A stretch of DNA of 64,000 nt from contig NZ_LR594487.1 of assembly GCF_901686465.1 (NCBI RefSeq), positions 1,361,650 through 1,425,649 on the forward strand, given 5' to 3'. The stretch is from Halorubrum sp. DM2. Lineage in GTDB: Archaea > Halobacteriota > Halobacteria > Halobacteriales > Haloferacaceae. A model generated the notes under the pieces. The model ran no database searches, was not told the DNA's origin, and was given only the letters and a program-made list of their open reading frames with translations. Below are positions 25,583 through 29,423 of the stretch, in pieces. Numbering within the stretch: the first letter of the stretch is position 1; each line of letters opens with the position of its first letter. Both the position numbers and the translations under genes were made by a program.

Positions 25583-26617
25583 ATGGTAACCTTCCTCGCC
25601 GGGGGGACGGGCACGCCGAAGCTCCTCGACGGCGCGGCCCGCGTGTGGGACTCGGCCGAGACGGCGGTCGTCGCCAACACGGGCGACGACGTCGAGATCG
25701 GCGGCCACCTCGTCTGCCCGGACGTCGACACCGTGCTGTTCGCGGGCGGCGGCGTCCTCGACCGGGAGACGTGGTGGGGGATCGACGGCGACACGACCGC
25801 GACCCACGACGAACTTGGCCGACTCGCCGACGCGGCCGGACTCGAAACCGAGCCCCGGTACCTCGACGACGCGGCCCAGACCGCCGGCCGGGAGATCGCG
25901 CGCTGGCGGCGCTTCTCGGCGGTCGCCGAGTTCATGGAGATCGGCGACCGCGACCGCGCGGTCCACCTCACGCGCACGAGCCTGCTCGACGAGGGGCACA
26001 CGCTCACCGAGGCGATCCGCGTCCTCGCGGACGCGTTCGACCTCGATGTCGACCTCCTTCCGATGTCCGACGACCCGGTGGCGACGCTGATCCACACCGA
26101 GGCCGGCGAGACGATCCACTTCCAAGAGTACTGGGTCGCGCGCCGGGGCGAGCCGCCGGTCGCCGACGTGGAGTTCCGGGGGGCCGAAGACGCCGAGCCG
26201 ACCCACGCCGTGCGCGAGGCGCTCGCCGACCCGGTCGTGATCGGTCCCTCGAACCCCGTGACGAGCCTCGGACCGATGCTGGCGCTGCCCGGCTTCGAGC
26301 GCGCGCTCCGCGAGACGCCCGTGGTCGCCGTCTCGCCGTTCGTCGGCGACGAGGTGTTCTCCGGGCCGGCCGCGGCGCTGATGGAGGGAGTGGGTCGGGA
26401 GCCGTCGACCGCGGGCGTCGCGGACGCGTACCCCTTCGCGGACGCGTTCGTCCTCGACGAGGCGGACCCGACTGAACTCGACCGACACGTCGAGCGCACC
26501 GATACGCGGATCGACGACGCCGACGACGCCGAACGCGTCGCCCGCGCCTGCGAACGTGCGCTGACGGCGGTCGTCGGCGACGTGGCGGACGCAGCGCCGC
26601 GGGAGGGCGCGGAGTGA
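25583..26617 (+). CDS. cofD: 2-phospho-L-lactate transferase CofD
   Basis: Coenzyme F420 biosynthesis enzyme joining the activated phospholactyl (or phosphoenolpyruvyl) group to the deazaflavin Fo. The 344-residue length fits the family. Motifs are [15 protein letters not shown] at the N terminus, [27 protein letters not shown]-like [13 protein letters not shown], and [18 protein letters not shown]. The ATG at 25583 starts right at the first beta strand; the longer open frame upstream comes from the repeat element and is not coding. The stop overlaps the GTG of the Dus-like gene, the first of three such overlaps in this operon. Confidence 0.95.
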
Positions 26618-27456
26618 GCCGGCGCGTCGACGGGGCCGAACCGCCCGCAGGCGACGGCCCCTTCCTCGTCGCCGCGAGCCTCAGCGGCGTCGCGGACGCC
26701 GAGTGGGCCCGGAGGGCGGCCGACCACGTCGACGTCGCGCTGCTCGGCGGCGTCGCACTCGACCCGGCCAGCCGCGCCGCCGCCCGCGACCTCGTCGCCC
26801 GCGGGCGCGAGGAGTTTCTCCCGACTGACCCGCTCGCGTTCGTCGCCGACCAGCTCGACGCGGTCGCGGACGCCGACGCGCCGGCCAGACCGGGGATCAA
26901 CGTCCGGAGCGCGACCCTCGAACCGGTCCGCGAGACCGCAGAGATCTGCGCCGACCGCGACGCGGTCTGCGAGATCAACGCCCACTGCCGGCAGCCGGAA
27001 CTGCGCGCGGTCGGCTGCGGCGAGTCGCTCCTGCGCGATCCGGACCGCTTGGAGCGATACGTCGCCGCCGCGGCCGAGGCGGGCGCGACGACGAGCGTGA
27101 AGGTCCGCGCGGCGGTCCCCGGCGTCGACCTCGTCGCGGCCGCGGAGACCGCCGCGGAGGCCGGCGCGGACTGGGTCCACGTCGACGCGATGGACTCTGA
27201 GCCCGCGGTCGGCGAGGTCGCGAGCGCGCTCGACGACGGACCCCCCGACGCGACGCTCGTCGCGAACAACGGCGTTCGCGGCCGAGAGACGGTCGCCGAG
27301 TACGCGGCCTACGGCGCTGACGGGGTGAGCGTCGGTCGCCCGACGGAGGAGCCGCCCGTCCTCGCGCGCGTCGCCGACGCCGTCGCCGACTGGCGGGCGG
27401 GGGCGCTGCGCGACCGCGGCGGCGACGCGGAACTGGAACCGGAGGCACGACCGTGA
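26614..27456 (+). CDS. Dus-like TIM-barrel flavoprotein
   Basis: 280-residue protein resembling archaeal tRNA-dihydrouridine synthase-like TIM barrels. Supporting stretches are [75 protein letters not shown] and [27 protein letters not shown], the last two matching the FMN phosphate site. The usual catalytic NxGCP loop reads NAHCRQ here: the cysteine is kept but its Gly and Pro are not. Its GTG start lies within the cofD stop. Position between cofD and a CitG-like gene suggests a cofactor role rather than ordinary tRNA modification; that is inference. Confidence 0.75.
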
Positions 27457-28472
27457 CCCGACGCGAGCGTCGGGAGCGCCGGCGGTCGGACGGGAACGAT
27501 CCCGTCGACGACGCGACGCTCGCGCTCTTGGTGGAGGTCGCCGGCACGCCGAAGCCGGGGAACGTCGACCGGCACCGCGACCTCGACGACCTGCGGTTCG
27601 AGTCGTTCCTCGGCGGCGCGGTCGGTGCCCGGGCGGGACTCGAACTGGCGGCGGAGACGGCGAACGGAGGCTCGCCGGACGGGACGGTCGGGGTCGGCGA
27701 CGCCTTCGAGCGCGCCGTCGAGGGGATGGCCGCGCGCGCCGGCACGAACACGCAGTTCGGCTGCCTGCTGCTCCTCACGCCGTTGGTTCGCGCGGCCGCG
27801 GACCCCGACCGCGACCTCTCGCCCGCGGGCGTCGGCGCGGTCTGTCGGGCGACGACGGTCGACGACGCGGTCGCCTTCTACCGAGCGTTCGAGGCCGTCG
27901 ACGTCGCGGTCGGCGACCCGCCGCCGGGCGCTGACGACCTCGACGTGCGGCGCGGGAGCGACGCCGAACCCGCGCTCCGGGAGCGCGATATGACGCTGCG
28001 AGACGTGCTGGCGCTGTCGGCTGCCCCCGACGACCTGGACCGCGTCCCCGACCGGAACGCCGCGGAATGGGTCGAGGGGTTCCCGCGGACGTTCCGCGCG
28101 GCCGAGTGGATCCTGACCGACGAGGGACCGCTCGCCGACCGGGCGGCCCGGGCGTTCCTCGGGCTGCTCGCCGCGGAGCCGGACACCCTCGTCGCGTCGA
28201 CGCGGGGGGCCGAGACGGCCCGCGAGGCGAGCGCGCGAGCGCGAGCAGTCTTGGAGCTGGGCGAGGGCGAGCCGGACAAAGGGAACGCGACGGGTCCGGT
28301 CGGAAGCGTCGACGCGGTCGACGCGGCCGCGGTCCACGACGCCGACCTCGACGCCGCCGAGTCGCTGGCGGAAGCGTTCGCCGCCGAGGGGATCAACCCG
28401 GGGACGACCGCCGACCTCACCTGCGCGGCGCTGTTCGTCGCGCTCCGGCGCGGCGCGGAGGTGGCGCCGTGA
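27453..28472 (+). CDS. CitG-like protein (triphosphoribosyl-dephospho-CoA synthase family)
   Basis: 339-residue protein of the CitG/MJ1655-like family, whose bacterial members make the citrate lyase prosthetic-group precursor. Motifs visible are VAGTPKPGNVDRHRDLDD, FESFLGGAVGARAG, AGTNTQFGCLLLLTPL and AEGINPGTTADLTCA. No citrate lyase genes are nearby, and haloarchaea do not need that cofactor, so the archaeal branch probably has another substrate. The GTG at 27453 overlaps the previous stop by four bases and the stop at 28470-28472 overlaps the next GTG. The Arg-rich first ten residues suggest the true start could lie a few codons later. Confidence 0.8.
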   Translation: MTRRERRERRRSDGNDPVDDATLALLVEVAGTPKPGNVDRHRDLDDLRFESFLGGAVGARAGLELAAETANGGSPDGTVGVGDAFERAVEGMAARAGTNTQFGCLLLLTPLVRAAADPDRDLSPAGVGAVCRATTVDDAVAFYRAFEAVDVAVGDPPPGADDLDVRRGSDAEPALRERDMTLRDVLALSAAPDDLDRVPDRNAAEWVEGFPRTFRAAEWILTDEGPLADRAARAFLGLLAAEPDTLVASTRGAETAREASARARAVLELGEGEPDKGNATGPVGSVDAVDAAAVHDADLDAAESLAEAFAAEGINPGTTADLTCAALFVALRRGAEVAP

Positions 28473-29122
28473 CGCCGGAACCGAGGGACGACCGCGGTCC
28501 CGACCGCGACGATCCGACCGGCGTCGCTCCCGACGGCTGGCCGGTGTCACTCCGGGGTGTCACCGAGTCCGTCGTGACGACGCGCGGGCCGAACGACCGG
28601 TGGAACGTCGCGGCGCTGGGGCTTCACGCGCCGGACGACCCCGGGGATCCGGTCACCGCGCGCACCTACGGGCGCACCCGCACGTGGCGGAACTTCACCG
28701 AGCGCGGCGGCGGCGTGGTCCAGTTCACCGTCGACCCGCGGACGTTCGTGGACGCGGCGCTCACGGTTCGGGAGGCCGACGAGCCGGTCCTGCCGAGCGC
28801 CGACGCGTGGGTCGAGGTCCGCGTCGAGGCGGTCGCGGTCGAGACCGAGGGCGACACGACGATCCGGACGTGGGAGTTGGAGCCGGTGGAGTCGGCGGTC
28901 GCGGCCGAGCGCGTTCCGACGGTAAACCGGGGCTTCGGCGCGGTCGTCGACGCCACGGTGGCCGCCTCGCGGCTCGACGTGCCGTCGTTCGACACCGAGG
29001 AGCTGCTCGACCGGCTCCGCTACTTCGCCGACGTGGTCGACCGCTGCGGCGGGCCGGCCGAGCGCGAGGCGTTCGCCCGGATCGACGAGGCGGCCGGGTG
29101 GCGGGAGCTCGACGGGTCGTGA
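28469..29122 (+). CDS. DUF447 family protein
   Basis: 217-residue protein from GTG 28469, which overlaps the stop of the CitG-like gene. It matches DUF447, a flavin-reductase-like split-barrel family: VTESVVTTRGPNDRWNVAALGL, ARTYGRTRTWRNF, GGGVVQFTVDPRTFVDAALTV and NRGFGAVVDATVAASRLDV. The family co-occurs with tetrahydromethanopterin or methanofuran-linked genes in methanogens and methylotrophs, as I recall, but haloarchaea use folate. It is the last gene of the cofD operon; the longer open frame beginning at 28067 is an artefact. Confidence 0.8.
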   Translation: MTPEPRDDRGPDRDDPTGVAPDGWPVSLRGVTESVVTTRGPNDRWNVAALGLHAPDDPGDPVTARTYGRTRTWRNFTERGGGVVQFTVDPRTFVDAALTVREADEPVLPSADAWVEVRVEAVAVETEGDTTIRTWELEPVESAVAAERVPTVNRGFGAVVDATVAASRLDVPSFDTEELLDRLRYFADVVDRCGGPAEREAFARIDEAAGWRELDGS

Positions 29123-29228: not shown

Positions 29229-29423
29229 ATGGCCATCAAGCCCAAGTACATCAAGCAGCTGGGGAACGCCCTGCTGGAGCGGTATCCCGACTCGTTCAAC
29301 ACGGACTTCGAGACGAACAAGGACAGCGTCACGGCGCTGACCACCGTCGAGTCGAAGGGCGTCCGCAACCGCATCGCGGGCTACGTCACGCAGAAGAAGG
29401 CGCAGGCGGCGAAACACGCGTAA
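29229..29423 (+). CDS. rps17e: Ribosomal protein S17e (eS17)
   Basis: Small-subunit ribosomal protein specific to archaea and eukaryotes. The 64-residue sequence MAIKPKYIKQLGNALLERYP followed by FNTDFETNKDSV and SKGVRNRIAGYVTQ is a full match to the archaeal length. It is a single gene after the cofD operon with its own TATA-like box, followed by a 135-base gap. Confidence 0.97.
   Translation: MAIKPKYIKQLGNALLERYPDSFNTDFETNKDSVTALTTVESKGVRNRIAGYVTQKKAQAAKHA

Follow-up and report, generated by a model that had tools for sequence, protein, structure and literature searches.

Haloarchaeal CitG and DUF447 genes behind cofD are co-inherited with RFAPS and Mer and may serve a methanopterin-type carrier

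Introduction

CitG transfers ribose from ATP to dephospho-CoA, and methanopterin carries a ribosylated arylamine side chain. The closest described relatives of the proteins treated here are the CitG and MdcB triphosphoribosyl-dephospho-CoA synthases, the beta-RFAP synthase MptG (MJ1427, MTH0830), the F420-dependent methylene-tetrahydromethanopterin reductase (Mer) and the tetrahydromethanopterin (H4MPT) gene islands of methylotrophic bacteria. Here we analyze an operon within a 64,000-nucleotide stretch of the archaeon Halorubrum sp. DM2 (contig NZ_LR594487.1, positions 1,361,650 to 1,425,649; hereafter the window). In this operon cofD, a gene of F420 synthesis, is followed by genes for a Dus-like barrel, a CitG-like protein and a DUF447 protein. 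An earlier note, made from the sequence of the window, had proposed that the four genes act together to make or modify F420 or another unreported cofactor. We compared the operon with loci and genomes of other haloarchaea, other archaea of the same phylum and bacteria; RFAPS below denotes a homologue of beta-RFAP synthase.

Our search of the open-licence literature found no paper linking DUF447, CitG or triphosphoribosyl-dephospho-CoA synthase with methanopterin, nothing on MJ0144, and nothing on ribofuranosylaminobenzene together with haloarchaea.

Results

RFAPS, CitG, DUF447 and Mer are well supported as a co-inherited module of haloarchaea. In the window, the CitG-type protein (ATP:ribosyl donor type, of the archaeal or H4MPT-island kind; PF01874) is encoded at 27453-28472 and DUF447, a split-barrel protein of the flavin mononucleotide (FMN) type (PF04289 and PF20766), at 28469-29122, both on the plus strand. 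The RFAPS homologue of this genome (G000:C1:288868-289950) is unlinked to the operon. Joint presence and absence were scored in 74 non-redundant haloarchaea, after removal of the duplicates G276 (the same as G018) and G307 (the same as G011). Fifty named genomes were chosen from the 80 named cofD loci described below; CitG and DUF447 were read from the cofD locus in 35 of these and from a genome search in 15. DUF447 and Mer, the latter scored as a match over its cut-off, were missing jointly from 5 of the 74 genomes and never separately (Fisher p = 6e-8, a value that ignores shared ancestry). These five genomes, hereafter the losers, are G001, G007, Halobacterium salinarum (G018, whose cofD matches the DSM 3754 copy at 100% identity), Halobellus rufus and Halobellus captivus. 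RFAPS was missing from the first three and matched in the remaining 23 haloarchaea of the sample to which these belong, and the two Halobellus species, which belong to the named set of 50, were without RFAPS, CitG and DUF447.

When the five losers are mapped onto an 88-row cofD tree, four separate changes are required, which are forced by well-supported branches; this count was made on a single-gene tree, with every row not known as a loser scored as a non-loser. The four losses on the tree are a safer figure than the Fisher values. Thus RFAPS, CitG and DUF447 were co-inherited with an enzyme that would use the carrier proposed below, the exceptions being G317, G325 and G328. Mer itself was over cut-off in 73 of 80 genomes; those below were G001, G007, G018, G276, H. 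rufus, H. captivus and G328. Weaker luciferase-family matches were seen in the Mer search in H. salinarum and the Halobellus losers. A split RFAPS homologue was observed in Haloarcula rara (G286; L225, 4268-5430), where it lies in two overlapping frames, owing either to pseudogene formation or to an error in sequencing, and may represent an early stage of loss.

The operon itself consists of two modules, one of cofD and the Dus-like gene and the other of CitG and DUF447. The first module begins with cofD (25583-26617, plus strand; TIGR01819), encoding the 2-phospho-L-lactate (or enolpyruvate) transferase of F420 synthesis, whose product reached 382.5 bits in the equivalog model TIGR01819 against a cut-off of 257.45. 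It is the single PF01933 (CofD) match in the whole genome, which comprises one contig and is 99.94% complete. The MJ0144-type Dus-like FMN barrel follows at 26614-27456 on the same strand (PF01207). Adjacent genes share four plus-strand bases, GTGA, which hold the stop codon of one gene and the start codon of the next: cofD/Dus-like at 26614-26617, Dus-like/CitG at 27453-27456 and CitG/DUF447 at 28469-28472. The coordinates, together with the Pfam and NCBIfam matches, bear out the four-gene operon with overlapping borders described in the earlier note.

We next consider how widely this arrangement is shared, using the best 80 named haloarchaeal loci of 217 found by a scan with a cofD alignment. 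The order cofD-Dus-CitG-DUF447 was found in exactly this form in 68 of the 80, and the arrangement is therefore not a chance one. Among the rest, eight had cofD and the Dus-like gene alone (two of them, L148 and L155, at a contig end) and four had other patterns. In-frame NTGA overlaps joined cofD to the Dus-like gene in 46 of 77 named loci, the Dus-like gene to CitG in 59 of 69, and CitG to DUF447 in 60 of 70. Of 145 genomes sampled from the haloarchaeal class, 142 had DUF447. At two of the loci with cofD and the Dus-like gene only (L193, L195), CitG and DUF447 were located elsewhere in the genome. The small draft genomes of L148 and L155 (G330 and G329, respectively) gave no match to CitG or DUF447; they were not counted as losers because RFAPS and Mer were not searched there.

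The losers show that the four genes can be separated. In G001, G007 and G018 (99% complete), DUF447 and CitG are missing, and cofD and the Dus-like gene are still adjacent (L102, L103, L104); the cofD-Dus pair is retained in all five losers. At L119, the cofD-Dus and CitG-DUF447 pairs are located apart, and G002 has cofD, CitG and DUF447 with no Dus-like match. A single four-gene functional unit was ruled out on the retained cofD-Dus pairs and on L119. The idea that the genes act together therefore held for CitG with DUF447 and failed for cofD and the Dus-like gene, which the co-loss pattern sets apart as a pair of their own. The co-occurrence check suggested in the note divided in the same way: in haloarchaea, tight co-occurrence links CitG and DUF447 to one another and to RFAPS and Mer, but cofD persists when they go. 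On its 3' side the operon is followed by rps17e (29229-29423) and a TctA-type transporter, and an asparaginase-type gene lies on its 5' side.

Gene neighbourhoods place Mer close to the same genes. In Halobellus clavatus (L222), a minus-strand operon comprises mer (11269-10247), DUF447 (10250-9588) and RFAPS (9583-8585); no match to CitG was found in this species. The known F420-dependent Mer enzymes are the best matches of the H. clavatus Mer copy in the Protein Data Bank (PDB). In Halorubrum sp. DM2, the gene immediately upstream of mer is cofE (L258). Among the 30 top-scoring of 73 mer loci, 29 have cofE and mer as neighbours on one strand. In G162, a genome of the same phylum outside the haloarchaeal class, cofE, cofD, CitG and DUF447 stand in a row (L264, 12723-15741). 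Sulfolobus acidocaldarius, one of 14 control genomes, was matched for RFAPS, CitG and DUF447 and not for CofD, Mch or Mer. Parts of one paper describe a modified folate, sulfopterin, as being in use in S. solfataricus (PMC3697235).

The same families recur among bacterial genes for H4MPT. A search of plasmids for DUF447 returned six records, and in all six, homologues of RFAPS, CitG, DUF447, Mch, MtdB, DUF6513 and MfnB lay within 28.5 kb; Fae was present as well in four of these stretches. Neither CofD nor a Dus-like protein was matched in the six island stretches. Gene tables annotate the island genes in two of the plasmids; in the other four, the region comes without a gene table. The CitG and DUF447 proteins of pAZKH were over their Pfam cut-offs. 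Outside the haloarchaea, the 30 top-scoring DUF447 loci of the phylum include 27 in which CitG is adjacent to DUF447. These results uphold the statement of the earlier note that the two families recur among methanopterin genes. The islands of methylotrophic bacteria resemble haloarchaea in holding RFAPS, CitG and DUF447 homologues together, to which they add further genes of pterin one-carbon chemistry. Haloarchaea differ in having CitG-DUF447 behind cofD and Mer with F420, whereas searches of the islands matched neither of the two cofD-module proteins, CofD and the Dus-like one, and Mer is not among the genes listed for the stretch in the two annotated islands. The presence of CitG and DUF447 in H4MPT islands argues that their product belongs to pterin one-carbon chemistry and not to F420. 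Passages of a published description give the island order orf19-orf20-afpA-orf21-orf22 (PMC3615186). In one island (L267, 12565-14001), a DUF6513 protein is encoded directly upstream of DUF447. Its match to PterinBD-DUF4346 is sub-threshold (26.7 bits against 29.6), and it is a candidate pterin-joining enzyme.

The sequences of the module proteins were compared with those of their characterized relatives. Haloarchaeal RFAPS passed the subfamily model TIGR00144 (156.5 against 113.5). It has in common with MptG the GHMP family, the GLGSGTQ and GRGGxSGVG loops and an equivalent of Arg26. Equivalents of Arg26 and His98, placed by motif, and the glycine-rich loops were kept in all 16 haloarchaeal rows; at the Arg26 position, 4 of the 6 bacterial rows and 9 of the 10 from other archaea align an Arg. 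This residue takes part in binding p-aminobenzoate in the enzyme of Methanothermobacter, as stated in parts of PMC6787355. A GQSSWGP motif is common to haloarchaeal RFAPS and five of the six bacterial rows, and is absent from most other archaeal rows. Mer passed the equivalog model NF002619 with 462.5 bits against 276.

CitG passed the superfamily model PF01874 over nearly its whole length (191.6 against a gathering score of 27), and it resembles the CitG and MdcB synthases in this family and in a match to PDB entry 3h9p. It departs from them in the equivalog models, all of which scored between 12 and 23 bits, with cut-offs that lie between 272 and 477 (TIGR03125, 16.7 against 272.3; TIGR03132, 23.3 against 282.35), and in motif changes shared with archaea: its NTxFG and NPGTTAD are common to other archaea of the phylum, while E. 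coli has NTHKG and SPGGSAD. DUF447 matched both of its Pfam families, PF04289 and PF20766, scoring 84.4 against 24 for DUF447_N and 65.1 against 24.8 for DUF447_C. Its structural model (pLDDT 93.0) was closest to the FMN-bound DUF447 proteins 2nr4 of Methanosarcina (Z 22.7) and 2iml of Archaeoglobus (Z 22.6), followed by flavin reductases. DUF447 is a predicted flavoprotein with an FMN-type fold.

The three losers tested kept a folate-type dihydropteroate synthase and Mch. A strong Pterin_bind match and Mch were present in all 24 haloarchaea tested, among them the losers G001, G007 and G018, and on these counts Mch was ruled out as a member of the module. In H. salinarum, Mur-ligase domains precede the Pterin_bind domain of the strongly matching protein, like in the FolCP fusion. 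A second Pterin_bind match was found in 23 of the 24 and differs in kind in G001 and G007. As a stand-alone protein beside the long one, it occurs in Halorubrum sp. DM2 (L263, 1427-2683) and at L073, where it passes the dihydropteroate synthase (DHPS) model TIGR01496 (178.9 against 162.6). This second DHPS-type protein was rejected as a strict module member on its retention in H. salinarum and on the different second match of G007 and G001.

Discussion

On balance we favor the reading, with a probability of about 0.55, that CitG and DUF447 contribute to the synthesis of a one-carbon carrier of methanopterin type, which Mer reduces with reduced F420 (F420H2). From the observed co-inheritance and neighbourhoods we infer both the product and each of its reactions, as follows. 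The operon would couple two jobs, with cofD, and with it the Dus-like flavoprotein, on the side of F420 synthesis, while CitG, DUF447 and the distant RFAPS would build the ribosylated arylamine side chain of the carrier. RFAPS would join phosphoribosyl pyrophosphate with p-aminobenzoate (or 4-hydroxybenzoate), releasing CO2. The DUF447 flavoprotein may carry out a reduction toward the open-chain arylamine, and CitG may add a second ribose from ATP, in the manner of CitG acting on dephospho-CoA. A pterin would then be coupled to the side chain. Finally, Mer, whose gene lies beside cofE, would convert the methylene-carrier to the methyl-carrier with F420H2. The methyl-carrier would probably serve methyl transfer; methionine synthesis is our guess, and it fits the methionine requirement of H. 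salinarum. Folate would be present alongside the proposed carrier.

In its general form, namely that most haloarchaea make an undescribed methanopterin-type carrier beside folate through RFAPS, CitG and DUF447 and reduce it by F420-dependent Mer, with F420 and the carrier both made from coupled operons, we consider the proposal evenly poised between true and false. The suggestion of another unreported cofactor was thus the better half of the earlier guess, and it can now be sharpened by naming RFAPS and Mer as the partners. Much early folate chemistry was reportedly done in H. salinarum, and such a carrier would have been overlooked because this species is among the few without the pathway, having lost it. 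If correct, the proposal would overturn the view, expressed in parts of a 2021 review, that haloarchaea use tetrahydrofolate instead of methanopterin, and would give a clear job to F420, whose importance in haloarchaea is there called enigmatic (PMC8305020). It would also make CitG and DUF447, as genes of methanopterin type, testable in Haloferax volcanii, a tractable aerobe and not a strict anaerobe.

Several observations weigh against this reading. According to the same parts of the review, methanopterin-specific enzymes are absent from haloarchaea, haloarchaeal Mer and Mch probably work on tetrahydrofolate, and HVO_2628, the RFAPS homologue, is listed as not isofunctional with RFAPS (PMC8305020). 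Unlike MptG, haloarchaeal RFAPS scores under the cut-off of the equivalog NF040726 (172.9 against 328 bits) and has Asn in place of Asp19 in all 16 aligned rows, where Asp stands in all 6 bacterial and all 10 other archaeal rows. In Methanothermobacter RFAPS, Asp19Asn retained partial activity with a KM about threefold higher, as reported in parts of PMC6787355. The haloarchaeal clade is long-branched, and a sister grouping with the bacterial enzymes would have support of only 58/49. Judging from these sequences, the haloarchaeal protein is perhaps an RFAPS-like enzyme with a shifted aromatic substrate. Mer likewise falls below one equivalog, TIGR03555 (289.7 against 348.7).

The distribution of the genes also provides points against the proposal. 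In the set of 74, RFAPS is missing from G325 and CitG from G317 in addition to the five losers, giving one discordance with Mer each. G328, a Natronomonas draft, has CitG and DUF447 and no Mer over cut-off; having had no RFAPS search, it is not part of the 74. The distribution of Mch is independent of the module, and H. salinarum retains its second DHPS-type protein. Outside haloarchaea, RFAPS, CitG and DUF447 are common yet not strictly tied. RFAPS occurs there without DUF447 in G160, G178, G185, G229, G233 and G275 (75-91% complete), CitG is missing from G216, G225, G233, G249 and G275, and G227 (99% complete) has CitG and DUF447 with RFAPS missing. Of 153 RFAPS matches, nine were under cut-off; they include the weak ones (1e-19 to 1e-22) that are the sole RFAPS matches of G194, G223, G231, G247 and G266 (98-99% complete). 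DUF447 proteins of Pyrodictiaceae, moreover, were suggested in 2026 to act in cannula formation, as stated in parts of PMC13140500.

The strongest of the alternatives, which we nevertheless regard as somewhat unlikely, is that Mer works on tetrahydrofolate and that RFAPS, CitG and DUF447 make another product, such as a folate modification or a ribosylated aromatic, which is dispensable in the same species, for example in those that gave up methionine synthesis. Reduced biosynthesis could drop several pathways together, the folate-type DHPS and Mch were retained in the three losers tested, and Mer is assigned to tetrahydrofolate in the review passages cited above (PMC8305020). Against a coincidence of this kind stand the joint losses of DUF447 and Mer in five of five cases among the 74 genomes, which the cofD tree counts as four losses. 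The mer-DUF447-RFAPS operon of H. clavatus ties Mer to the product, and the RFAPS, CitG and DUF447 families accompany H4MPT genes in bacteria.

A further possibility concerns the Dus-like protein and is compatible with the carrier proposal. The protein, coupled to cofD, might be the missing archaeal FMN-dependent dehydro-F420-0 reductase (named CofX in PMC6450877), a secondary lead that we hold to be clearly improbable. It stays beside cofD in all five losers, and its structural model (pLDDT 89.9) resembles FMN-dependent C=C reductase barrels, with Dus, DPD and DHOD barrels included among the TIM barrels that gave the best Foldseek matches. It passed the gathering score of PF01207 (26.1 against 20.4) and fell below the MJ0144 family model TIGR00736 (136.5 against 218.7). 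In place of NxGCP, the catalytic motif of Dus, it has AHCRQ, invariant in 16 of 16 rows, with Cys kept at that place. Parts of a study of F420 synthesis state that the archaeal dehydro-F420-0 reductase is unknown and that nitroreductase-fold genes near cofE were sought (PMC6450877). The reductase role is weakened because the Dus-like gene is missing at several cofD loci: it was not matched in G002, and none was found at the cofD locus of L172, L227 or L115. Moreover, 58 of 157 genomes of the phylum had no Dus-like match at E <= 0.001, and at the non-haloarchaeal loci L112, L117, L118, L120 and L121 a Dus-like gene accompanies CitG-DUF447 with no cofD in the stretch. Clusters of a Dus barrel with marker 9, CitG and DUF447 occur elsewhere in the phylum, in many presumed methanogens, in the same gene order as in haloarchaea. 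The barrel of L112 (6305-7447) carries the methanogenesis marker 9 domain (TIGR03277, 174.3 bits), and marker 9 is therefore linked to CitG-DUF447; in contrast, no NCBIfam match to this domain was found in the haloarchaeal barrel. The RFAPS scores of the groups with these non-haloarchaeal clusters are mostly far above the haloarchaeal ones.

We give little credence to the making or modification of F420 by the operon as a whole, with CitG adding ribose to F420 or Fo and DUF447 performing a reduction, which was the other half of the earlier guess. Such a role would fit the 68 named loci, where CitG and DUF447 are tightly coupled with cofD, and the gene row of G162. It is disfavored because the losers retain cofD in the absence of CitG and DUF447, and because the bacterial islands have CitG and DUF447 with no CofD or Dus-like match. 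Sulfolobus, like the islands, combines CitG, DUF447 and RFAPS with no CofD match. To our knowledge, RFAPS has no role in F420. A role for CitG in forming the prosthetic group of a citrate lyase or malonate decarboxylase, as its family name and the location of E. coli citG in an operon of citrate lyase/malonate decarboxylase type would suggest, is scarcely credible and was rejected on its equivalog scores far under cut-off, its NTxFG and NPGTTAD motifs, and its co-loss with RFAPS and Mer.

Two losers show a further arrangement of PF00809 genes. In G007 (L260, 1537-3231) and G001 (L261, 890-2583), the second PF00809 protein adjoins a B12-binding protein, the domains having been tested in G007. 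Perhaps this pair provides these losers with an alternative route to methylate tetrahydrofolate.

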